Shown here: positions 2,466 to 58,780 of the stretch, piece by piece
How positions within the stretch are numbered: position 1 is the first letter of the stretch
Layout: every line of letters starts with the position of its first letter
Origin: Hirundichthys speculiger
Taxonomy: Eukaryota; Chordata; Actinopteri; Beloniformes; Exocoetidae
Length of the DNA stretch: 64,000 bases
NCBI GenBank assembly: GCA_018398805.1
Contig: JAGFBZ010000738.1
Location: 434,001-498,000 of the forward strand
Reading direction: 5' to 3'
The notes under the pieces: model-generated
Told to the model about the DNA's origin: nothing
The model's database searches: none
Seen by the model: the letters and a program-made list of their open reading frames with translations, nothing else
Made by a program: the position numbers and the translations under genes

Positions 2466-3039
2466 CAGGGATTCCCAAAGTGGGGTGCGCACACCCCCAG
2501 GGGTGCGCAAGCTGCCTCTAGGGGGTGTGCGAGATGAAAAATGTAATGGCGGTCTGATAATTTTTTTTTTTTTTTCACACAATAAAGATGTGTAAATAAA
2601 CATTTCCTTTGTAAAATTTTAAATCAAAAACTGTAATTTTAATGAATAAATAAATGCAGGCTATTCAAAATGCACGTCATCTTATAGTGAAGCGTAGAAG
2701 AAGAAGTTATATTCTTCTACCACTGCATTTGGACCTAGCTTGTGGCCTCTACTTTATTCATTCTCGCAAATATGCTAAATGCTGTGTTATGATGACGGGT
2801 TGTGTTAGTTCCACGGTCATTTAAACTTGCTGCAATTTTTGTTCAATGTTCAAAGTATTCTAACATTTTCCTCAACTTATCTGCTTTCTGCCACTGAGTC
2901 TGAGCATGTCATCCATCCTCTTTGCTCTTAAAGGTCCCATATTATGCTACTTTTAACTCTTTTAATCATGTCTCATAGGTCTTTAGAGCAAGGTTATGAA
3001 TTCTGTTGCAAAAAACCCCACACATTTAGGTTGTGAGAG

Positions 3040-3210
3040 CCCTCCTTTCTCCCACACTTTTTGCTGTGCTGAAATCTGTGCTGTTTTGAGTGGGCGGGAT
3101 GCTATGCAAATGAGGTACTGCTCTGATTGGCTGCCTGATTCCTTGGTCCCGGTGGGCGGCTCCAGCGCCTGCGGTGGGACTTTCAAGACGCTGGAACAGG
3201 GTAAACAAAC
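3040..3210 (+). promoter_or_regulatory. putative promoter of the P2X7-like gene inside the Kolobok
   Basis: Within 170 bp upstream of the first ATG there is a GC box ('gggcggg' near 3092), a perfect octamer ATGCAAAT (about 3104-3111), an inverted CCAAT box ('attggctg' near 3126) and a second GC-rich 'gggcggc' (near 3153). No TATA box is seen. The assignment rests on motif clustering and position only. Confidence 0.45.
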
Positions 3211-4799
3211 ATGGACGTACCACAGGTCATGTTTGATCCTGTTTCGGAGCCTGAAGAGGAGCAGACACCGGTTGAAGAGGTTCAGCCACGGTTACAGCAG
3301 GATGTCAATGAGTGGTAGGTTGAAAATTGAGGGCCTTATCTTATGTGAAACGCCATTTGTTTTGAGCTTTTTCACTTTTCAATGGGTATAAGATAGGGAA
3401 CTTTATATTACATCCAAAGTTTAAATAAATAAATAAATAAATAAAAGGCAAATGGCGCTATTTTGCACTTTTCAATTCATAAGATAGGCATAATATAGGG
3501 CCATGAGTGTCTTATTTTTACTGTTTGCTTTGCTTTTACACTGTTATTGCCCTGGCTATAACAGTGGTTTTTATTTTTTGGCTATGTCAGTGGCTATCGT
3601 TAGCCATTACATGCTAGTGTTATTCAGCCATAGCTCAACAGTTTGATATCTAACAGACTTTATGATGCACAACTATATCTGTAAAAATATATATATTGCA
3701 CCTCATGGAGGCCTACTGTAAGGTTATAAGAGCAGTGTAATAACAGTGGTGCAAGACCAGCTTTGTATTTGACACCATTATTTTTGTTTTACATTACTTT
3801 CTACAGTAGGCTACTGTTATCTAAATTCTCTATTCTTTTTCAACAGGTGCTTATGTGGGAATTGTGCAACAATGCCCACAGAACGTGAAAATGTGTGCTG
3901 CCAGGAGGTCCCACAGGTATCAATCATATGAGAAATGTAATTGCCAGTACAATGTTCTTATGGTTTGCAAAAATTTACTCAGTTGTTACCCTTTTGTTAT
4001 TCCTTAGGTCACAAGAAGGATGAATCAGCTGGAAGATCCACCCAGATGCATGGTTGATCACCCTGGTCTTGAACCAGTTTGTCTGAACTTGTATTCTCTC
4101 CAGAATGCAATGAATATATATAGAGCTGACTATGGGCTCTTACGGCTTAGAGGTATAGAGCAGTAAGTATCTGTTCTACAGTCAAAGCATAATTTGATTT
4201 GCCAATGAATATTGTCAACATGATTTTTTACAATACTATAAATGACAATAAATGTGATTTAAATAATCTGTTATGTTATTACTCTATATAGAGGTAGCTT
4301 TAGCACAGTAGTGTTTTGTTGTGACCGATATAACAAAACCCAGAAGCAGTTACTGAAAAATGGCCTACAATTCTATACACACTATACACTTGCATGGTCC
4401 TTTATTGCAATTGCAGATATTTTCTCACCAGACATCCATGTACAGTATATGTGAAGACAATAAGTAATCACAACACTGACTGTTGATACATAAGATACTT
4501 TATTGCAGAGTAAAAATATAAAAAGGCATATAATTAACCAACATAAATAAAACAAACTTATAAGTAACACAGTATTAACAAGTATAAATAAGTAATACAA
4601 ATAAAAATCCTGAGATGTGCTTGTATGTCTTTTCAGTCGTTACAGATTCTTGGCATACAGATCCTTTGTGAGCTGGTGCTGGGGATTTCTGGGTCGAAGG
4701 ATCAGAGTAGTCATACCAGCTTGTGTGGTGCTACGCATACGCACTGAGTTCCCTGATGCTCAAGGCGTATATGTAGGGTTCAGACTGCCTCAAGATTAA
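3211..4799 (+). CDS. P2X7 receptor cytoplasmic 'ballast' (zinc/nucleotide-binding) domain-like protein, carried by the Kolobok
   Basis: Four exons, 3211-3314, 3847-3916, 4008-4162 and 4637-4799, join with GT-AG junctions and matching phases into a 163-residue open frame with no lesion. The start ATG has A at -3 and G at +4. Residues 1-34 are an acidic leader ending in 'DVNEW'. Residues about 35-58 hold a cysteine cluster 'WCLCGNC...VCC', which matches the WCxCGxC and CC zinc ligands of P2X7. A middle segment (about 59-110) includes further cysteines. The C-terminal part reads 'YRFLAYRSFVSWCW' and 'RIRTEFPDAQGVYVGF', matching the P2X7 segments YRCYATWRFG and RIRKEFPKSEGQYSGF. No transmembrane helix or channel domain is present, so it is a free ballast domain. 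The gene lies tail to tail with the transposase; their coding ends overlap by 20 bp (4780-4799). Its role in transposition, if any, is unknown. Zinc or nucleotide binding is inferred from the family. Confidence 0.88.
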
Positions 4800-7700
4800 A
4801 CCGCGACACGTAGCTGGCAATGACATCCTCCTTGGCTGGCCTCTCAAACTCTGCACACAGGTCTGCCGGGATGGGGATCTCCAAAACCTTGTTGGCAAAA
4901 GGTCCAGGATCCAGGATGATGTGATCGAAAATCAGGTCCATCAACTCATCAACGTATTCTGTGGAGTACAAAACCAATATCACTATATCATCCATTACAA
5001 AAGAATGTGTAACATTTTAGTCTGTACAGACACTGTCATACACCAAAATGTCCTTTGGTGTTTTCTAAATTATGTTGTAATATATTTTATACTAACTTAT
5101 TCCATGTATATATTTACTTATTTTCTTTTGATTACCCCCAAAACAGTTTGCACACTCCAGCTCCCTTATGCAGTTTGTAATGATATCCACCAGCGATTTT
5201 TGGAGCTACATGCTCTTCTTTAGACAATGTTTGAAAAAGAGTGGCTCCAAATGTCAATTATGGATGTCATTAAAAACTGCATAAGAGAGCTGGAGTGTGC
5301 GAACCTTCAATTTGTTTTGATTACTCTGTTTTATAGGTCCAGCACCTTGTTTTATATTGTATGGATGTGTGCATTTTGTTGTCATTTTTCTATGTTTTGT
5401 GTGTGCAATAAAAAAGTTGGTTAAACATACTGAAGGTTGCATCTGTTTTGACCGGCTTGGCTGTGCATTCCCCCTTCTTGGACTTGGGAAAGTGGACCTT
5501 GAAGAGAGGTGCACCGTCAGCAGTCTTTTGGGGGCGGTTCGCATTTTCATTGAAATGCAGAGCAGACAGGTAGAGTCTGGGGAAATAAATGAAAGTAAAT
5601 TAGTGATAATTAAAATACATAACAGTATTTTCAACAGGCCGTAGACATTGTGATTTCACTGAAAACTATGCATATTCACATAAATTTAGACTATAATCAT
5701 TAACATACAGAATTAGTACAACATATATGTAGTACAATGAACTGGGTGTAACCACAAAACATTTGTAAAACAAGGCTTACAATGAATGGATTAGAAATGA
5801 TTTTCTCATCCTCCCATACTCAGGCTGTAACCACTAACCAGCTGCACCGTGTACGGTTGATGTTATCTTTATCTTATCCATATGCTCTGTTCTCTATCAA
5901 TAGTTTTTAATTTCAAACCTTTTTTCAAATTAAATTAATAACAGGATTAACTGACTTATTTTAGAATCTGACAAATAATGTATACAGCATAAGTCTGTGG
6001 ATATTCTCATTTATCCAGGTAGGTTCCATTCTCGCAACAATTGAATCATAGACAACTGGACTTAGATTTGTCTAGAAGACGTTTCGCCTCTTATCCAAGC
6101 GGCTTCATCAGTTCTCAACGCAACAGTCTGACTAGTCCGCACTAGTCAGACAAACAGTGGAGTATGACTCTGGTTTTTAACCTCTGTGGGGGTGTGCACC
6201 CACCACTTCCTAACGACAGTACTTCGTTAGTCGAGTTTCACTGGACCCTTTGTTTGGGTCAGGAGAGACACACCAGTGAAAGGACAGTCGTTAGGAGTGA
6301 GTGGGGCCACTGGTGGACAACAGTCGTTGGGCATGAGGTGTGATTACCAGTGAACGACTGTCGTTATGTTTCTTTGAGCAGCTTGAGTTTGGTTTCGGGC
6401 AGTCCTTGTTATTCAGTCTTTTAGGCACAGTAGCGAGGGCTGCATTGTAAATGGGAGAAAGATGAAATCTTAAGCCACCTCCCCTGTTTAGAGACGGCTT
6501 CTCTAATTTAACGTAGATGGATTCTTTTACTCCTCTCTCAAACCATCTGTCCTCTCTGTCCAAGATTTTCACATTTTTGTCCTCAAAAATCTTCGACTAA
6601 CGAAGTACTGTCGTTAGGAAGTGGTGGGTGCACACCCCCACAGAGGTTAAAAACCAGAGTCATACTCCACTGTTTGTCTGACTAGTGCGGACTAGTCAGA
6701 CTGTTGCGTTGAGAACTGATGAAGCCGCTTGGATAAGAGGCGAAACGTCTTCTAGACAAATCTAAGTCCAGTTGTCTACGATTCAATTGTTGCGAGAATG
6801 TATACAGCAGCAATAGTAATGTTTAGAACTGCAAAATCACTACATAAACTAAATATCTCACCGGAAACTAATAAAAACAAGTCAGTGAAACAAATAATAC
6901 TCCTCACAAAATTTGTTTCGTTTTGTGTTATTTACCTGCACAGCATTCCAAGAAATGGGAAAAAAACAACATTTTTTGGGGCAAAGCGAAGTATCACACT
7001 GTGGAAAGCTTCGAGAGAGGAGGTCTGATGGTGAGGGCTCAGCTTTTCCACATCTTTCAACACTCGCTTGCTGGTCAGCAACTTCTCCAGTTTGTAGAAA
7101 GCAGGAGTTGCTGAAAGAACAGAATCAAGTGGGTCAATACATATGCAAGTGTTATGCCAGTGGTAACAAATAATTTTCATCCTATCAACAACTGAAAAGC
7201 TTACAAAACTCAATCCATGCATAATTTCAGGTTCAAATGTAAGTCTGTTAGTGACTTCAGTGTACAGATGAGAACATACCAGCTCTCAACCATTTACGCC
7301 TGTCCGTTGTGACGCGGACTGGATGCAGGCAATTGGGGAACAAGGGGTCATCATGGGTGTGGATGTCCTGCACATGGTTGAGGATTGAAGTCCACTTTGC
7401 CACTCTCTCAGGCCCGGAAGTAGAGGAAGCTGCAGTCCAGTATATGTGATTTTTTATACTGCGCATCCACTTCTTCAAAGGCTCACATTCCTTGTTTTTG
7501 CAGATCTTCTCCAGTTGCTTGGACAATCCTAGTAATGCAGAAACAAAGTGAATGAACACAGTGAATTGATATATGAATGTTTTATTCTAATGGAGAACAG
7601 TTGACTTGACAAGAAAGTAGAATGTGCAGTTGCTTATGTAAAAAAATTGAAATGTGGCCATGATGGGAAAAAAATTGTTCACCTATGATTGTGTGTTCTA

Positions 7701-10700
7701 TATTTTTGAACCAGACATAAAAACAGGAACAGACAAAAACATTACCTTTCTCCATGTGCCAGACATCATAAAATTGGGTGATGTTGGATTCCCTCAGGAA
7801 TTTTTGGATCTGCGGGTGACGATCTGTCACTATGCAATCCAGGGTCACACCAAATTCCTCCAGGAGTGTAAGGCTCCTTTTCAGGCCCTCTTTCTCCATA
7901 TGATAACTCCCCCCAACTTCATTGCTCTGGTTAAAAAAAGGGGGGAAAGGGGATGTGATTGATGATTGATAAACGTTTGTCTGTCTGTGAGCTGCTTCAC
8001 TACAGGCTGTCAGGATGGAAGCAGAAACACGTCAAGGATTTTTTTTTTTACCCAAAATGACAATTGCATTTTGCAGAAAAACTTTCAATGTGTAGCCCCA
8101 GATTTAACTTGTGTGACATCATTCTTTTCACCGCTGCATATACATTTTCACTAACCTGCACTAGCTGTACATCGATGACAGTGTTGCGCTTCAGGTCCAT
8201 CATCGTATAACTCCCGTACTTGGCACAGTGTCCTGAGAACATAAATTTAGAGAATGGAATTGCAACAAAGTGAGTGATTATTCAGAAAGGATGTCCTTTT
8301 TTATCGTAACGTCTGAAAATAATGCTAATTTGTAATAAGCATAGTACCTGGTGAGTCAGCCCTCATATCACCACCAACAATCACGCTCTGCTCTTGACTG
8401 AGCTGTTGCAACATGGCTTCCTGCTCCGTCTTCCACTTATGCACGACAGCTGGCTCAAGGTACATCCTGGCATGTCTTCTGAAGGTGTCATACCTGTACA
8501 CCTTCAGCTGCATTGCCCTGAAGATCTGATTTGAAAGACAAAAAACATTATCAGTTATCCAGCTTCACACAAACGCCTCCAGTTATTAGATTTTTTTCTG
8601 TCAAACACATCAGCATGCAAATGACACTTATTAGCTGCTTTCCAAATACCTTTTCCAGTTTGAGAAAGGAGGATGCCCCACTGAAGTACACAGCTGCAGA
8701 AAGTTGGAGGTTCCCGGCTGGGGTGCTTCCAACAACCGGCTGACTCCTCCATTCTCTCCCATAGGCACAATGAGGGCACTGCTGTTTCACTGCAAGGAAT
8801 GTACCAATTCTCCTCGTATTGACATCACAGACCCTCTGGCACACCGGGCAAATTTCAAAGAGCTCCAGGAGGCAGTTCTCATACACAATGTATTTCCATA
8901 TTTTCTGGATGGGAGTGGATGCTTCTCTATTTGCCAAAAAAAAAGAAAAACATGCGATTTCATATCGAAAGAGGACAGATAAGCGAAACAAAGATATGTT
9001 TTATAAAAGTGTAGTGGCAATATAAAATAACTTACGACATAGTGGTTGACTCTTTTAACACAGTCACAGAATCCTCTGGATTGTATGTTGAGTCGTGTGG
9101 TTCTGGAGCCTCCATAGAAGAGCTGCCCTCCATCGGATCGTCCTCACCCTCTTCCTCATCCACCAGGTCGAGAAAAAGGCCTCTTGATGGGTGTCGAAGT
9201 CATGAGAGGTTGTGTAGACAATACAGTTTCCGTCTGAGTACCTTTATATGCACAGGAGAAACACACACACACACACACACACATGAATATATGTCATTAA
9301 AATGATCAGACTTAACGTTTGAGATGCAATTAATTATTACTTTATTTTTTATGAAATCGTCTGACAGATCACAAACCTGTACTTCTGAAGTGAGGCTGTA
9401 GAGTTCTAATGGATAACTGTGTGCTGGTCGTTGCTGTCGCTGGAGGGTCTGTCTGGCAGCCAACATCTCGAAATGTTGGCCATGCCGTAGATGTACTGGC
9501 CTAACAGAGAATAAAAATATGTATTTATATGTTTTATACTTTGTGTCAAAGCATATCATTGACACATTTACGGTTCTTTAAATCTTGACATTTTTTATAG
9601 CTTTTATAATAGGTAAAATCAATTTAGTGCAAAAAAGAAAAATTGCAACAGCAGTACACTAATCATTTTAGTTTGTTTGATTTATTCTGTTATCAGACAG
9701 TTTGTCATAACGTACATGATATTTATCAGGTATGTCATGACAAACTGTGTCCGATAACAGAAAAAAACTATATTTACTACAGCTGATGTAGATGCTATGA
9801 TATGAAATCCAAAGCAGTGAACAGTGAACACTGGTTGTGTGAGTGAGTGTGTGCCTGGGTGTTTTTTTTTTTTCTTTAGGTGTTCCATCTATTACAGACA
9901 GCCGTTTAAATAAATAATTATTAGCCTCTTTGTGTTTAGCTCGTTGAGTGACTCTCGCCTTTTTACGTTTGTGCTTTTCACTCATTATTTTGATCCTTGT
10001 TGGAAGACCACGGGGCAGACCAGGACCCGGTGGAGAGATGATATCTCTCAGCTGGTCTGGTGGAAGCGCCGGGGGGAGGGAGGTCTGGGCCCCTCTGCTG
10101 AAGCTGCTAACCCCGCGAGCCGACTACGGACCAAGCGGGAGCTAATGGATGGATGGAACTGATCCTTGCACGTATATTTTGTGTCCATTCAATCGCGTGC
10201 TGGCAAAACTTGCAGAATTTTAAATTGCCAGACACATAATAATCTCGGATAAACTGCTCTGCCCTGTACCTGAGAGTAAAACCGCTAGTTCCTTTGCTTC
10301 TTCGCCGGTTTCTCGGGTGCCGCTTCGACGTGTTTTTTTTTTCTATGATGAGGAAAGCGGGGGCAGAGAAGCTAGAATGTCCCCACCTTTTCGTGAACCC
10401 TCTTGGAACATTTTCTCGAAAGAAAAGTTCCTTTTAGTCCGGGAGAAAAAAAAAGAAAAAACTTTTACGCAAATTGCCGTTCAGTTCTTTTATATTGTGC
10501 ATTTTAAAGTGAATTCCGTTTTTAATCTCCAATTCCGTGATTCCGTCCGCGATTCCGTGATCGCGGATTCCATAGGGCTCTAAATCTTCCAGCTACCTGG
10601 CGATCTCCCTCCAGCCAGCTGCCACCTTATTTTAGACTAACTATGAATCAGCTGTTCCTCACATAACGTTACTGCAGCGCTCTCCAACACGAGCGACAGG

Positions 10701-11252
10701 CAGAAAATATTAACAGGGCGTCCGACAAAAGTTCAGCTGAAAACGGCACGGCGCGGTCAGTTAGGACATTAAAAAAACAAAGCTATCAAATTGATTTTGT
10801 CGCTGATGCTCGCTCGCGTCTCATGCAGTTAGGACACGGTACAAACAGACACAGGACGGTCACCGCGTTAGCAAAGCATAACATGCTATCAAGCTATCTG
10901 ACTGCACCTTAGTAGGAATAACCAGTAAATATTATCACAAAATGTAGACACTTACCGATGGTTGGTTTGCAGTTGCTGGGTCACGTAGAGTTGGTACTGA
11001 ATCTTTGTTGAGAGTCAGTTTAGAAGCTAATCCAGCTTTGAACTGACCCTCGTTGCCGAAGCAGTCCGAAGTGAAGTGGGTAGCACAGACCAGCAGAGTT
11101 GAAGAAGAAGTTGTGGTCGGCACGTTATTATCAAAAATAAATGCTAGCCACTGTTGTTTAACATCCTCCGATGCTGGGAGGGAAAACAAACATTTATGTT
11201 GGTTTGTACAACCGACAACGTTGCACCTAGAGTGTCTCACTCGCTTCGACAT
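4780..11252 (-). CDS. Kolobok transposase (THAP zinc finger plus RNase H-like DDE domain), 11 exons, one frameshift
   Basis: Exons read from right to left: 11252-10956, 9500-9377, 9241-9036, 8926-8650, 8525-8348, 8232-8156, 7926-7746, 7528-7280, 7110-6936, 5576-5431 and 4958-4780, about 695 codons. All have GT-AG junctions with compatible phases. Exon 1 is a THAP domain: C-x4-C ('CNVVGC'), then 'CATHF' (C-x2-H) and 'SVPTL', for sequence-specific binding of the transposon ends. Exon 2 has 'RDVGCQTDPP'. Exon 3 is an acidic linker, exon 4 a CxxC zinc site ('CPVCQRVC...CPHC'). The probable first catalytic aspartate is in 'GGDMRADSPG' (exon 5), the second in 'CIVTDRHPQ' (exon 7), and a candidate glutamate in 'TSSLEAFHS' (exon 9). 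The last exons carry 'LHFNENANR' and 'YVDELMDLIF'. Exon 3 contains a net one-base gain or two-base loss near 9175 (after 'STPIKRP'), which stops the frame. This copy is therefore probably inactive unless an internal acceptor is used. Confidence 0.9.
6072..6115 (-). ncRNA. hammerhead-ribozyme-like motif, left arm of the Penelope element
   Basis: On the minus strand the order is AGAA, CTGATGA, a GCC...GGC hairpin, GAAAC, GTC, TTCT. This is the conserved hammerhead core (CUGANGA, stem II, GAAA, then the GUC cleavage triplet), with AGAA/UUCU able to form stem I. Stem III is almost absent (only ACGU, self-complementary), as in minimal hammerheads that act as dimers. Hammerheads are known from Penelope-like elements. 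Activity here is inferred only. Confidence 0.6.
6712..6755 (+). ncRNA. hammerhead-ribozyme-like motif, right arm of the Penelope element
   Basis: Mirror copy on the plus strand: CTGATGA at 6716-6722, stem II 'gcc...ggc', GAAA at 6742-6745 and the GTC triplet at 6747-6749, followed by TTCT that can pair with AGAA before the core. All core nucleotides are intact, as in the left-arm copy on the opposite strand. Confidence 0.6.
9255..9285. repeat. (AC)n microsatellite
   Basis: Short CA/CACA run ('acacacacacacacac') in the intron between transposase exons 2 and 3. It has no coding role. Confidence 0.9.
9990..10160 (+). mobile_element. LINE 3'-end fragment with ATGG tail
   Basis: In frame it reads 'GQTRTRWRDDISQLVWW' and later 'RELMDGWN', then 'atggatggatgg'. 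Fish CR1/Rex-group LINEs end with such a 'RWRDYISxLAW' segment and a short tandem ATGG tail. It is a 5'-truncated retroinsertion inside the large intron between transposase exons 1 and 2. Confidence 0.6.
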
Positions 11253-11420
11253 GATTAGGCGGCAATGGCAATGGCGGCCCGCGGCCGGGTCGGCTCAAGG
11301 CGAAGAGGGAGAGGGGGAGTGGTTATGGTAATAGCATGTAAATGAGGGCCTGTTGTTACGTCACTCCAGGCCAATTCTGAATTGGCTCATTTCAGACATG
11401 AATTCCTACTTTGCAGGCTA
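11253..11420 (-). promoter_or_regulatory. putative promoter of the Kolobok transposase
   Basis: GC-rich block at about 11275-11325, then a CRE-like 'ttacgtcac' near 11357 and two CCAAT boxes in opposite orientation ('ccaattctgaattgg', about 11371-11385), within 170 bp upstream of the THAP ATG. No TATA box is clear. Together with the left-end promoter this gives the element two inward-facing promoters. Confidence 0.4.
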
Positions 11421-11689
11421 GAGAAACAATGCAGATTCTTTGACTTTTTTCATGCCACAGCTTTGGTAGGCTGAAGGATGACTAAGATATATATGTATAG
11501 GTATGAAAAAACATGTTTTTCACAATATGGGACCTTTAAAAGTGGAAGCCTGCGCATAACTTTGTTTCATTATATTGGAACTGTGTTACAGTGTTTCAGT
11601 TTAATTTAAATGCGAGAGCGCATTGTTGTGATTGTGATTATTATGTTATATGTGCGGCTAAAAAAGTTTGGGAACCGCTGGCCTAAATG

Positions 11690-52294: not shown

Positions 52295-55200
52295 GGAGGT
52301 GGTACTGGTTCTGGTCCAGGTCCAGGTCCAGGTCCAGCTGATGGAGTAGTCTCCAAGATGAGGAAGTCTGACCCTTGTCCTGGTCCTGGTCCAGGTCCTG
52401 GTCCAGGTCCAGGTCAAGGTCTGGCTGAAGCAGTAGTCTCTGAGATGAGGAAGTCTGACCCTGGTCCAGGTCCAGGTCCAGCTGATGCAGTAATCTCTGA
52501 GATGAGGAAGTCTGGCCCTTGTCCTGGTCCAGGTCCAGGTCCAGCTGGTGCAGTGGTCTCTGAGATGAGGAAGTCTTGTCCTGGTCCAGGTCCAGGTCCA
52601 GCTGACGCAGTGGTCTCTGAGATGAGGAAGTCTGGCCTTGTCCTGGTCCAGATCCAGGTCCATCTAATGCAGTAGTCTCTGAGATGAGGAAGTCTGGCCC
52701 TTGTCCTGGTCCAGGTCAAGGTCAAGGTCCAGCTGATGCAGTGGTCTCTGAGATGAGAAGGTCTGGCCCTTGTCCTGGTCCAGGTCCAGGTCCATCTAAT
52801 GCAGTAGTCTCTGAGATGAGGAAGTCTGGCCCTTGTCCTGGTCCAGGTCCAGGTCCTGGTCCAGGTCCAGGTCCAGGTCCAGGTCCAGCTGGTGCAGTGG
52901 TCTCTGAGATGAGTAGGTCTGGCCCTGGTCCTGGTCCAGGTCCAGGTGATGCAGTAGTCTCTGAGATAAAAAAGTCTGGCCCTTGTCCTGGTCCAGGTGC
53001 AGGTCCAGCTAATGCAGTAGTCTCTGAGATGAGGAAGTCTGACCCTGGTCCAGGTCCAGGTCCAGGTGATGCAGTGGTCTCTGAGATGAGGAGGTCTGGC
53101 CCTGGTCTAGATCCAGGTCCAGGTCATGCAGTAGACCCTGAGATGAGTAAGTCTGGCCCTGGTCCAGGTCCAGGTCCAGGTCCAGGTCCAGGTCCAGGTG
53201 ATGAAGTAGTCTCTAAGATGAGGAAGTCTGACCCTTGTCCTGGTCCAGGTCTAGGTCCAGCTGCTGGAGTAGTCTCTGAGATGAGGAAGTCTGACCCTTG
53301 TCCTGGTCCAGGGCTAGGTCCAGGTTCAGCTAATGCAGTAGTCTCCAAGATGAGGAAGTCTGAGCCTCGTCCTGATCCTGGTCCAGGTCCAGGTAATGCA
53401 GTAGTCTCTGAGATGAGTAAATCTGGTCCAGGTCCAGGTCCAGGTCCAGGTGATGGAGTAGTCTCTGAGATGAGGAAGCCTGACCCTAATCCTGGTCCAG
53501 GTCCAGGTCCAGGTGATGCAGTATTCACTGAGATGAGGAAGTCTGACCCTTATCCTCGTCCATGTCCAGGTCCTGGTGATGCAGTAGTCTATGAGATGAG
53601 GAAGTCTGGTCCTGGTCCTGGTCCTGGTCCTGGTCCTGGTCCTGGTCCTGGTCCTGGTCCTGGTCCTGGTCCTGGTCCTGGTCCTGGTCCTGGTCCTGGT
53701 CCAGGTCCAGGTCCAGGTCCAGATCCAGGTGCAGGTCCAGGTCCAGGTCCAGGTCCAGGTGATTGAGTAGTCTCTGAGATGAGGAAGTCTGACCCTAATC
53801 CTGGTCCAGGCCAGGTCCAGGTGATGTAGTAGTCACTGAGATGAGGAAGTCTGACCCTTGTCCTGGTCCAGGTCCAGGTCCTGGTCCAAGTCCACCTAAT
53901 GCAGTAGTCACTGTGATGAGGAAGTCTGACCCTTGTCCTGGTCCAGGTCCAGGTCCTGGTCCAAGTACAGCTAATGCAGTAGTCTCTGAGATCAGGAAGT
54001 CTGACCCTTGTCCTAATCCAGGTCCAGGTCTTTTTCGAAGTCCAGCTGATGCAGTGGTCTATGAGATGAGGAAGTCTGGCCCTAATCCTGGTCCAGGTCC
54101 AGGTCCAGGTGATGCAGTAGTCACTGAGATGAGGAAGTCTGACCCTTGTCCTGGTCCAGGTCCAAGTCCTGGTCCAAGTCCACGTAATGCAGTAGTCTCT
54201 GAGATGAGGAAATCTGACCCTTGTCCTGGTCTAGGTCCAGCTGATGCAGTGGTCTCTGAGATGAGGAAGTCTGAGCCTAATCCTGGTCCAGGTCCAGGTC
54301 CAGGTGATGCAGTAGTCACTGTGATGAGAAAGTCTGACCCTTGTCCTGGTCCAGGTCCTGGTCCTAGTCCAGCTAATACAGTGCTCTCTTAGATGAGGAA
54401 GTCTGACCCTTGTCCTGGTCTAGGTCCAGCTGATGCAGTGGTCTCTGAGATGAGGAAGTCTGGCCCTTTTCATGGTGCAGGTCCAGGTCCAGCTGATGGA
54501 GTGGTCTCTGAGATGAGGAAGTCTGAGCCTTGTCCAGGTCAAGATCCAGGTCCAGCTAATGCAGTAGTCTCTGAGATGAGGAAGTCTGACCCTTGTCCTG
54601 GTCCAGGTCTAGGTCCAGGTCCAGGTCCAGCTGATGCAGTGGTGTCTGAGATGAGGAAGTCTGGCCCTGGTCCAGGTCCAGGTCCAGGTCCAGGTCCAGG
54701 TCCAGGTGATGCAGTAGTCTCTGAGATGAGGAAGTCTGGCCCTTGTCCTGATCCTGGTCCAGGTCCAGGTGATGCAGTAGTCTCCGAGATGAGGAAGTCT
54801 GGCCCTGGTCCAGGTCCTGGTCCAGGTCCAGGTCCTGGTCCAGGTCCAGGTGATGGAGTAGTCTCTAAGATGAAGAAGTCTAGCCCTTGTCCTGGTCCAA
54901 GTCCATGTCCAGCTGATTGAGTAGTCTCTGAGATGAGGATGTCTGACCCTGGTCCAGGTAAAGATCCAGGTCCAGCTAATGCAGTAGTCTCTAAGATGAG
55001 GAAGTCTGACCCTTGTCCTGGTCCAGGTCTAGGTCGAGGACCAGGTCCAGCTGATGCAGTGGTGTCTGAGATGAGGATGTCTGGCCCTTGTCCTGGTCCA
55101 GATCCAGGTCCACCTAGAGCAGTAGTCTCTAAGATGAGGAAGTCTGACCCTTGTCCTGGTCCAGGTCTAGGTCCAGGTCCAGCTGATGCAGTGGTGTCTG

Positions 55201-58200
55201 AGATGAGGAAGTCTGGCCCTGGTCCAGGTCCAGGTGAGGCAGTAGTCTCTGAGATGAGGAAGTCTGGTCCTTGTCCTGGTCCAGGTCTAGGTCCAGCTCA
55301 GAGTCCAGGTCCAGCTGATGCAGTGGTCTCTGAGATGAGGAAGACTGGCCCTAGTCTAGGTCCACCTCCAGGTGATGAAGTACTCTCTGAGATGAGGAAG
55401 TCTGATCCTGGTCCAGGTCCAGGTGATGCAGTAGTCCCTGAGATGTGTAAGTCTGGCCTTGGTCCTGGTCTAGGTCCAGGTCCAGGTCCAGGTAAGGTAG
55501 TAGTCTCTGAGATGAAGAAGTCTGGCCCTTGTCCTGGTCTAGGTCCAGCTGATGCAGTAGTCTCTAAGATGAGGAAGTCTGACCTTTGTCCTGGTCCAGG
55601 TCTAGGTCCAGCTGCTGGAGTAGTCTCTGAGATGAGGAAGTCTGGCCCTGGTCCTGGTCCTGGTCCTGGCCCTGGTCCAGGTGATGCAGCAGTCTCTGAG
55701 ATGAGGAAGTCTGTCCCTGGTCCAGGTACAGGGCTAGGTCCAGGTTCAGCTAATTTAGTAGTCTCCAAGATGAGGAAGTCTGAGCCTGGTCCTGATCCTG
55801 GTCTACGTCCTGGTCCAGGTCCAGGTGATGGAGTAGTCTCTGAGATGAGGAAGTCTGACCCTGGTCTAGGTCCAGGTAATGCAGTAGTCTCTGAGATGAG
55901 TCAGTCTGGTCCTGGTCCTTATCCAGGTCCAGGTCCAGGTCCAGGTCCAGGTGATGCAGTGGTCTCTGAGATGAGAAAGTCTGACCCTAATCCTGGTCCA
56001 GGTCCAGGTGATGCAGTAGTCACTGAGATGAGGAAGTCTGACCCTTTTCCTGGTCCAGGTCCAGGTCCTGGTCCAAGTCCAGCTAATGCAGTAGTCTCTG
56101 AGATAAGTATGTCTGGTCCTGGTCCAGGTGATGCAGTAGTCTATGAGATAAGGAAGTCTGGCCCTGGTCCAGGTCCAGGTCCAGGTCCAGGTTCAGCTAA
56201 TTCAGTAGTCTCCAAGACGACGAAGTCTGAGCCTGGTCCTGGTCCAGGTCCAGGTCCAGGTCCAGGTCCAGGTCCAGGTCCAGGTCCTGGTCCAGGTCCA
56301 GGTGATGGAGTAGTCTCTGAGATGAGGAAGTCTGACCCTAATCCTGGTCCAGGTTCAGTTCCAGGTGATGCAGTAGTCACTGAGATGAGGAAGTCTGACC
56401 CTTTTCCTCTTCCAGGTCCAGGTCCTGGTCCAAGTCCAGCTAATGCAGTAGTCTCTGAGATGAGTATGTCTGGTCCTGGTCCTGGTCCTGGTCCTGGTCC
56501 TGGTCCTGGTCCAGGTCCAGGTCCTGGTCCAGGTCCAGGTGATGGAGTAGTCTCTAAGATGAAGAAGTCTAGCCCTTGTCCTGGTCCAAGTCCATGTCCA
56601 GCTGATTGAGTAGTCTCTGAGATGAGGATGTCTGACCCTGGTCCAGGTAAAGATCCAGGTCCAGCTAATGCAGTAGTCTCTAAGATGAGGAAGTCTGACC
56701 CTTGTCCTGGTCCAGGTCTAGGTCGAGGACCAGGTCCAGCTGATGCAGTGGTGTCTGAGATGAGGATGTCTGGCCCTTGTCCTGGTCCAGATCCAGGTCC
56801 ACCTAGAGCAGTAGTCTCTAAGATGAGGAAGTCTGACCCTTGTCCTGGTCCAGGTCTAGGTCCAGGTCCAGCTGATGCAGTGGTGTCTGAGATGAGGAAG
56901 TCTGGCCCTGGTCCAGGTCCAGGTGAGGCAGTAGTCTCTGAGATGAGGAAGTCTGGTCCTTGTCCTGGTCCAGGTCTAGGTCCAGCTCAGAGTCCAGGTC
57001 CAGCTGATGCAGTGGTCTCTGAGATGAGGAAGACTGGCCCTAGTCTAGGTCCACCTCCAGGTGATGAAGTACTCTCTGAGATGAGGAAGTCTGATCCTGG
57101 TCCAGGTCCAGGTGATGCAGTAGTCCCTGAGATGTGTAAGTCTGGCCTTGGTCCTGGTCTAGGTCCAGGTCCAGGTCCAGGTCCAGGTAAGGTAGTAGTC
57201 TCTGAGATGAAGAAGTCTGGCCCTTGTCCTGGTCTAGGTCCAGCTGATGCAGTAGTCTCTAAGATGAGGAAGTCTGGCCTTTGTCCTGGTCCAGGTCTAG
57301 GTCCAGCTGCTGGAGTAGTCTCTGAGATGAGGAAGTCTGGCCCTGGTCCTGGTCCTGGTCCTGGCCCTGGTCCAGGTGATGCAGCAGTCTCTGAGATGAG
57401 GAAGTCTGTCCCTGGTCCAGGTACAGGGCTAGGTCCAGGTTCAGCTAATTCAGTAGTCTCCAAGATGAGGAAGTCTGAGCCTGGTCCTGATCCTGGTCTA
57501 CGTCCTGGTCCAGGTCCAGGTGATGGAGTAGTCTCTGAGATGAGGAAGTCTGACCCTGGTCCAGGTCCAGGTAATGCAGTAGTCTCTGAGATGAGTCAGT
57601 CTGGTCCTGGTCCTGGTCCTTATCCAGGTCCAGGTCCAGGTCCAGGTCCAGGTGATGCAGTGGTCTCTGAGATGAGAAAGTCTGACCCTAATCCTGGTCC
57701 AGGTCCAGGTGATGCAGTAGTCACTGAGATGAGGAAGTCTGACCCTTTTCCTGGTCCAGGTCCAGGTCCTGGTCCAAGTCCAGCTAATGCAGTAGTCTCT
57801 GAGATGAGTATGTCTGGTCCTGGTCCAGGTGATGCAGTAGTCTATGAGATAAGGAAGTCTGGCCCTGGTCCAGGTCCAGGTCCAGGTCCAGGTTCAGCTA
57901 ATTCAGTAGTCTCCAAGACGACGAAGTCTGAGCCTGGTCCTGGTCCAGGTCCAGGTCCAGGTCCAGGTCCAGGTCCAGGTCCTGGTCCAGGTCCAGGTGA
58001 TGGAGTAGTCTCTGAGATGAGGAAGTCTGACCCTAATCCTGGTCCAGGTTCAGTTCCAGGTGATGCAGTAGTCACTGAGATGAGGAAGTCTGACCCTTTT
58101 CCTCTTCCAGGTCCAGGTCCTGGTCCAAGTCCAGCTAATGCAGTAGTCTCTGAGATGAGTATGTCTGGTCCTGGTCCTGGTCCTGGTCCTGGTCCTGGTC

Positions 58201-58780
58201 CTGGTCCTGGTCCTGGTCCTGGTCCAGGTCCAGGTGATGCAGTAGTCTCTGAGATGAGGAAGTCTGACCCTTGTCCTGGTCCAGGTCAAGGTCCTGGTCC
58301 AAGTCCAGCTAATGCAGTAGTCTCTGAGATGAGTATGTCTGGTCCTGGTCCTGGTCCTGGTCCTGGTCCTGGTCCTGGTCCTGGTCCTGGTCCTGGTCCT
58401 GGTCCTGGTCCTGGTCCTGGTCCAGGTCCAGGTGATGCAGTAGTCTCTGAGATGAGGAAGTCTGACCCTTGTCCTGGTCCAGGTCCAGGTCCTGGTCCAA
58501 GTCCAGCTAATGCAGTCGTCTCTGAGATGAGGATGTCTGGTCCTGGTCCAGGTCCACCTAATGCAGTCGTCTCTGAGATGAGTAAGTCTGGTCCTGGTCC
58601 TGGTCCACGTCCTGGTCCTGGTCCTGGTCCTGGTCCTGGTCCTGGTCCTGGTCCTGGTCCTGGTCCTGGTCCTGGTCCAGGTCCAGGTCCAGGACGAAGT
58701 CCAGCTGATGCAGTGGTCTCTGAGATGAGGAAGTCTGGCCCTGGTCCAGGTCCAGCTACCGGCAGATCTGTCTACTGGTA
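52295..58780. repeat. giant compound minisatellite of GGTCCW hexamers
   Basis: Runs of GGTCCA or GGTCCT alternate with a conserved spacer of about 36 bp ('gatgcagtagtctctgagat' then 'gaggaagtctg[ag]ccct'). On the plus strand this gives long open frames of Gly-Pro repeats with 'DAVVSEMRKSDP' linkers: 52684-53766, 53841-54392, 54393-54920, 54933-56609 and 56622-58781. All three plus frames and the minus strand are also largely open because the unit is a 6-mer. Frameshifts (around 52676 and 53767-53840) and stops in frame argue against one protein. It lies 1.0 kb upstream of the exon at 59776, so it is most likely intronic or upstream repeat DNA. Confidence 0.93.
54855..58240. repeat. 1,689-bp tandem duplication within the minisatellite
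   Basis: The blocks beginning at 54933 and 56622 are the same for about 1.65 kb, with occasional GGTCCA-number changes (for example two extra Gly-Pro pairs in the second). This is a higher-order unit exactly 1,689 bp (563 codons) apart. Confidence 0.92.

Follow-up and report, generated by a model that had tools for sequence, protein, structure and literature searches.

The 64,000-nucleotide stretch of DNA considered here (the window) comes from the fish Hirundichthys speculiger (assembly GCA_018398805.1, contig JAGFBZ010000738.1, positions 434,001 to 498,000 of the forward strand) and harbors, at 2932..11535, a transposon of the Kolobok superfamily, 8,604 bp long and with the termini 5'-AG...CT-3'. 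Two genes lie in it: on the plus strand, a four-exon gene coding for KolX, a protein similar to the C-terminal (ballast) domain of the P2X7 receptor, and on the minus strand, an 11-exon gene coding for a THAP/DDE transposase. The two genes converge on each other between the same two ends, and they were inserted jointly at many unrelated TTAA sites.

The element, its ends, and its two genes

The TTAA target-site duplication occupies 2928..2931 on the left and 11536..11539 on the right of the element. On the left, TTAA is followed by AGGTCCCATATT, starting at 2932; on the right, AATATGGGACCT runs up to 11535 and is followed by TTAA. The terminal inverted repeats, 2932..2946 on the plus strand and 11521..11535 on the minus strand, match each other, and mechanical detection of inverted ends returned the arms 2925-2946/11521-11542, which are 91% complementary; the TTAA-flanked inverted ends of the original prediction are thus real. 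The 12-base end motif, allowing for at most one mismatch, occurs just twice in the window, at the two element ends, with 0.35 occurrences expected by chance. On its own, this motif would not prove the ends, since 7 of 100 shuffles also held at least two occurrences. An independent boundary for both flanks is provided by the short host element in which Kolobok is nested (2466-11680, ends CAGGGATTCCCAAAG and CAGCGGTTCCCAAAC). This element, which we take to be hAT-like from its end sequences, is present as two parts around Kolobok, 2466-2927 and 11540-11680, and is flanked by its own 8-bp duplication, GCCTAAAT, at 2458-2465 and 11681-11688.

The KolX gene comprises exon 1 (3211..3314), coding for the acidic N-terminus, exon 2 (3847..3916) with the CxCGNC and CC motifs, exon 3 (4008..4162), and exon 4 (4637..4799) with IPAC..RIRTEFP and the stop codon at 4797-4799, all on the plus strand. 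Every intron is of the GT-AG type, and the spliced frame of 492 nt, including the stop, corresponds to 163 amino acids (aa), so the complete four-exon P2X7-like frame claimed at 3211-4799 stands. The protein matches the Pfam family P2RX7_C with an E-value of 1.5e-16 and 61.3 bits (cut-off 23.5) and the solved P2X7 chains with an E-value of 3.9e-12, and such similarity to the P2X7 domain is far beyond chance.

The predicted transposase gene runs on the minus strand from 11252 down to 4780 in 11 GT-AG exons. Exon 1 (10956..11252) carries the THAP domain, recognized by Pfam PF05485 with an E-value of 3.8e-11 in the window exon and 2e-9 in the protein of L020, another copy of the element. It is followed by exon 2 (9377..9500), exon 3 (9036..9241), exon 4 (8650..8926), and exon 5 (8348..8525), where the first catalytic D was assigned by eye in GGDMRADSPG. 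After exon 6 (8156..8232), and likewise assigned by eye, exon 7 (7746..7926) holds the second D in TDRHPQI and the DxxH signature in YDVWH, and exon 9 (6936..7110), beyond exon 8 (7280..7528), holds the catalytic E in SLEAFHS; TDRH, YDVWH, and SLEAFH thus come in the order typical of a DDE transposase with C/DxxH between the second D and E. Exon 10 (5431..5576) and exon 11 (4780..4958) complete the gene, the end of which overlaps that of KolX, tail to tail, by 20 bp (4780-4799). The Pfam Mutator match of the transposase is weak (25.8, just under the cut-off of 26.5). As had been predicted, the opposite-strand transposase is broken: exon 3 is where the reading frame is lost, and the window copy, as modelled and with its frame as it stands, cannot encode the complete transposase.

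Copies of this element differ in two stretches. A fold-back insert lies at ~5990-6797, with 208-bp arms at 6027-6234 and 6593-6800 that are 100% complementary, and is flanked by the 13-bp repeat AATGTATACAGCA; it is missing in 11 of 20 other copies retaining its flanks, and the empty site, as displayed for copy L012, contains one 13-bp repeat only. The region ~9592-10580, in the first long transposase intron, is absent or swapped for other sequence in 11 of the 20 copies, the same 11 that are without the fold-back insert.

According to the accessible sections of Kojima & Bao 2022 (PMC9587614), the Kol0 lineage of Kolobok (Kolobok-1_XT and kin) encodes a transposase together with KolX, a protein matched to the P2X7 C-terminus, or ballast domain; KolX accompanies Kolobok across animals, and P2X7, and probably nanor, derived from it. 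The idea that transposons were the source of the P2X7 domain is therefore borne out by the literature. The other expectation, that a two-gene Kolobok of this kind had not been described, is not: the kind was published in 2022, and the fish element is a new example of it. The 5'-RR and YY-3' termini that distinguish Kolobok from piggyBac (PMC9587614, accessible sections) are found in the window element as AG...CT, along with the other features of the superfamily, i.e., the TTAA duplication, the DDE core with DxxH (by eye), and THAP, as well as the Kol0 feature, KolX as a second protein, which resembles the P2X7 C-terminus and has seven conserved cysteines. Very probably, the element is one copy of a young two-gene transposon that belongs to the published Kol0 type of Kolobok and has been mobile in recent times.

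The fish element differs from the Kol0 of PMC9587614, as far as its accessible sections go, in particulars only: a four-exon KolX, convergent overlapping genes, and many near-identical copies in one fish. Neither the four-exon KolX nor overlapping gene ends nor open fish copies were seen in those sections. Xenopus Kolobok elements likewise have THAP/DDE transposases and underwent recent amplification, and the main text on them (Hikosaka & Konishi 2018, PMC6004289) is without the terms P2X, ORF2, "second protein", and "two ORFs". Among the traits of Kolobok, the same paper names an H2CH motif. Among the matches listed in the literature searches, the link between Kolobok, KolX, and P2X7 appeared in PMC9587614 only, judging by the accessible sections of these papers; PMC9319628 contains both words but draws no link in its accessible part, and the other matches listed for KolX belong, by title, to physics, chemistry, or materials.

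Copies in the same genome

The genome of H. speculiger (1.04 Gb in 3,002 contigs) was searched with two queries taken from the element, its leftmost 279 bp and its rightmost 280 bp. The left query revealed 32 places, the window included, and a KolX exon-4 match is present at 31 of them (counted by hand among the best 150 matches listed). The 32nd copy, C328, was considered as a left end devoid of KolX and rejected, since its fetched sequence holds exons 1-3 plus part of exon 4. A 33rd KolX copy, C61, is without the left end, the contig stopping there. The right query revealed 35 places; 32 pair with left ends (C2407 is cut by the contig end), and in the three unpaired ones (C61, C2740, C2010) the contigs stop inside the element. 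Identical ends without the P2X7-like gene, against which the original prediction was to be checked, occur at none of the 32 left-end places, and no KolX-less copy was found among those detected with the 279-280-bp ends, copies keeping only the terminal repeat being beyond the reach of these queries.

Of 21 copies examined at their borders, the window included, 16 have two matched ends, and all 16 are flanked by TTAA on both sides; they represent separate insertions because, in addition to the TTAA, their flanking sequences are all different. In the remaining five, one end does not match the exact end string. Hence, the part of the cargo or accessory claim according to which the P2X7-like gene is part of the transposon and travels along with it is upheld (32/32 places, different TTAA sites), whereas its accessory role is something that we only infer.

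The state of the two genes was surveyed in 20 KolX copies, out of the 32 known besides that of the window, which were read at length with the splice sites taken from the window. KolX is open in 19 of them, with an in-frame 3-base difference in three of these 19. Six copies (L018, L020, L022, L023, L026, L027) have a transposase frame open over 692 aa and, if spliced as modelled, can make the full protein; transposase exons are missing in three (L010, L014, L019), and small changes break the gene in 11. KolX is open in 13 of the 14 copies lacking an open transposase. In L020, L022, and L023, the transposase protein is identical to the letter, and the movement of the family is therefore recent. 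Two subfamilies (11 vs. 10 copies) are distinguished by three sites in KolX exon 1. Variable sites among the 21 copies amount to 1/388 in KolX exons 2-4, 16/1,097 in the KolX introns, and 6/104 in exon 1, and the mean pairwise difference is 0.16% in the KolX introns and 0.45% in the 5' region. Collectively, these figures are those of a young family whose movement is recent, perhaps current. Since the family is so young, an intact KolX is no proof of need. The significance initially attached to an intact P2X7-like frame next to a broken transposase is accordingly weak: the transposase is open in six of the 20 copies, and an open KolX could be due to nothing more than the youth of the family.

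The KolX protein and a second Kolobok family

An alignment was built from 65 of the 149 proteins found by search, the fuller-length ones being picked. The tryptophan and the seven zinc-site cysteines are preserved in 62-65 of these 65 relatives. The relative from Carassius is 75% identical to window KolX, and its structural model, with a predicted local distance difference test (pLDDT) score of 85.8, gave a confident structural match to P2X7 alone. In comparison with the P2X7 ballast domain and nanor, as presented in the accessible part of Rump et al. 2020 (PMC7016195), KolX displays the same fold, the seven zinc-site cysteines, and arginines matching R546 and R578; unlike the P2X7 receptor, it comes without a channel and does not keep the equivalents of R574 and K583.

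The contacts of guanosine diphosphate (GDP) in rat P2X7 are R546, H547, R574, R578, and K583 (PMC7016195, accessible part). Arginine stands at the R546 position in 63/65 relatives and at the R578 position in 60/65, and the H547 position is held by Y in 42, H in 19, and F in four. The R574 equivalent is V, I, or L in 65/65, never a basic residue, and that of K583 is D in 56/65 and K in none (one R); window KolX itself has R, F, V, R, and D at the five positions in the order given above. The full contact set of rat P2X7 is therefore not found in the KolX relatives, with two of the five contacts lost. Both R574 and K583 are lost also in free ballast proteins and non-mammal P2X7 (PMC7016195, accessible part). 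The zinc core looks ancestral in KolX and mammal-type nucleotide binding does not; the guanine-nucleotide binding that had been carried over from P2X7 to this protein appears doubtful, with R574 and K583 themselves retained in 0/65.

Single-exon relatives of KolX surfaced in the window-KolX search of the same genome. A search for such intronless KolX gave 383 candidates, 150 of which were scored; the score-sorted sample favors good copies. The best 50 of the 150 scored share 95-100% identity with the query; 40 of them are stop-free. Three copies readable end to end (L029, L030, L032) are ~4.4-4.9 kb in length, start with TTAA-AGGAGCCGT, and have TTAA on both sides in 3/3 cases; L033 has the same left part. 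In all four, pieces on the opposite strand match positions 459-616 of the 701-position fish Kolobok transposase profile (best E-value 1e-8). The profile region with the first two catalytic residues found no match in these four copies, in which introns could hide pieces, and we read the partial transposase as a probable result of decay or deletion. A more distant relative, L031, shows further transposase pieces (best E-value 2.8e-11). The two families thus share the TTAA flanks, KolX on one strand, and transposase-like pieces on the other, but the intronless one has another terminal repeat, a one-exon KolX, and more copies. Hence, the genome holds two Kolobok-type families whose KolX gene structures differ. 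Apart from them, a third, older KolX copy with an internal stop (L047, G000:C1895:2627500-2628900) is ~70-72% identical to the window KolX protein over three exon-like pieces.

With 105.8 bits against P2RX7_C vs. 61.3 bits for window KolX, the intronless protein is nearer to P2X7 in score. The ballast-domain tree was built from 35 rows (three of the 38 gathered were dropped when the domain pattern failed to cut), with the database rows grouped by finding query and only three P2X7 sequences, all from mammals. It resolved the four-exon-type KolX (99/95), the intronless-type KolX (94/89), and mammal P2X7 (100/100) as three groups; since these join at one point, the tree singles out neither type of KolX as the donor of P2X7. 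The P2X7 tail is encoded in one exon, exon 13 (PMC7016195, accessible part), with which the intronless KolX would fit better as the likelier kind of donor.

Possible roles of KolX

No stated role for KolX was found in the literature searched, and PMC9859053, in its accessible part, calls the function of the P2X7 ballast domain unknown. From what is known of the family, the transposase would bind the element ends via its THAP domain, cut, and reinsert the element at TTAA. KolX would represent a compact zinc-structured adaptor, binding the transposase or its complex with DNA, and could aid the assembly, stability, or nuclear entry of the transposase, as the Myb-like protein does for Harbinger. 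Harbinger transposons also encode a DDE transposase and a second protein in the same element; the latter is Myb-like vs. ballast-like in Kol0, and no homology is claimed. On this account, KolX might be an accessory factor of transposition, a view that we hold tentatively and at somewhat less than even odds. The fuller reading, in which KolX works as a transposition factor and fish Kol0, several copies of which have both genes open, is still mobile, is assigned a probability of about one in three.

Several observations weigh against an accessory role of KolX. The variation of KolX among the 21 copies is too sparse for a selection test, the copies being too young, and transposase breakage per base is not clearly commoner than that of KolX (a rough estimate from 20 copies). 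In the intronless family, 16 KolX copies from the best-scoring rows differ by 18 silent and 25 replacement changes, which is only mildly below neutral. Short terminal-repeat copies without KolX could exist beyond the 279-280-bp queries; short gene-less Kolobok elements, T2-MITE, are known to move in Xenopus (PMC6004289, accessible part). The mobility of the latter agrees with KolX being a passenger, i.e., an ancient accessory gene which rides along and is no longer relevant to transposition in the window family. So does the youth of the copies, in which an unneeded KolX would still be intact (0.16% intron and 0.45% 5' difference), and the stop-free state of 40 of the best 50 intronless copies is, by estimate, about what neutral decay predicts at that divergence. 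Nevertheless, the retention of KolX with Kolobok across animals (PMC9587614, accessible sections), the preservation of its seven cysteines in 62-65/65 relatives, and its presence in 32/32 copies found by the left 279 bp speak against a mere passenger, which we consider rather unlikely.

Less probable still, KolX may act as a regulator, e.g., as a repressor of transposition or as a protein countering host defence or acting on host signalling. A dominant regulator would be expected to stay open in copies without an open transposase, as in 13 of the 14 such copies, and the intronless family likewise keeps KolX beside a broken or deleted transposase. Moreover, the convergent genes overlap at 4780-4799; possible poly(A) signals include 5407 (+) and 4499 (-), others being predicted as well, and if these two were used, the transcripts would overlap by ~0.9 kb. 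An accessory factor or a passenger would account for these facts, too. A host gene that lies here by chance, or that was captured by the window copy alone, is an extremely improbable explanation of the P2X7-like frame: the domain does occur in two genes of the host, P2X7 and nanor (PMC7016195, accessible part), but at 32 places the same gene sits in the same position within the same ends, and the flanks differ wherever they were read, which refutes a host-gene reading.

Near-identical copies, six of 20 having both frames open, constitute material for testing KolX in transposition. Should KolX prove to be a working transposition factor, it would offer a first test bed for the job that the ballast domain had before joining an ion channel. 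The residue counts argue for zinc, and not guanine nucleotide, as the ancestral ballast feature; on the same reading, the pre-channel domain would have been zinc-structured and not built on guanine-nucleotide binding of the mammal type.

Beside the transposon, the window contains at 14623-39018 a histone/tRNA cluster with seven histone 3' stem-loops and eight tRNA genes on both strands. Further on, at 52300-58760, there is a long GC-rich minisatellite built from GGTCCAGGTCC-type units, the periods ranging from ~50 to 270.

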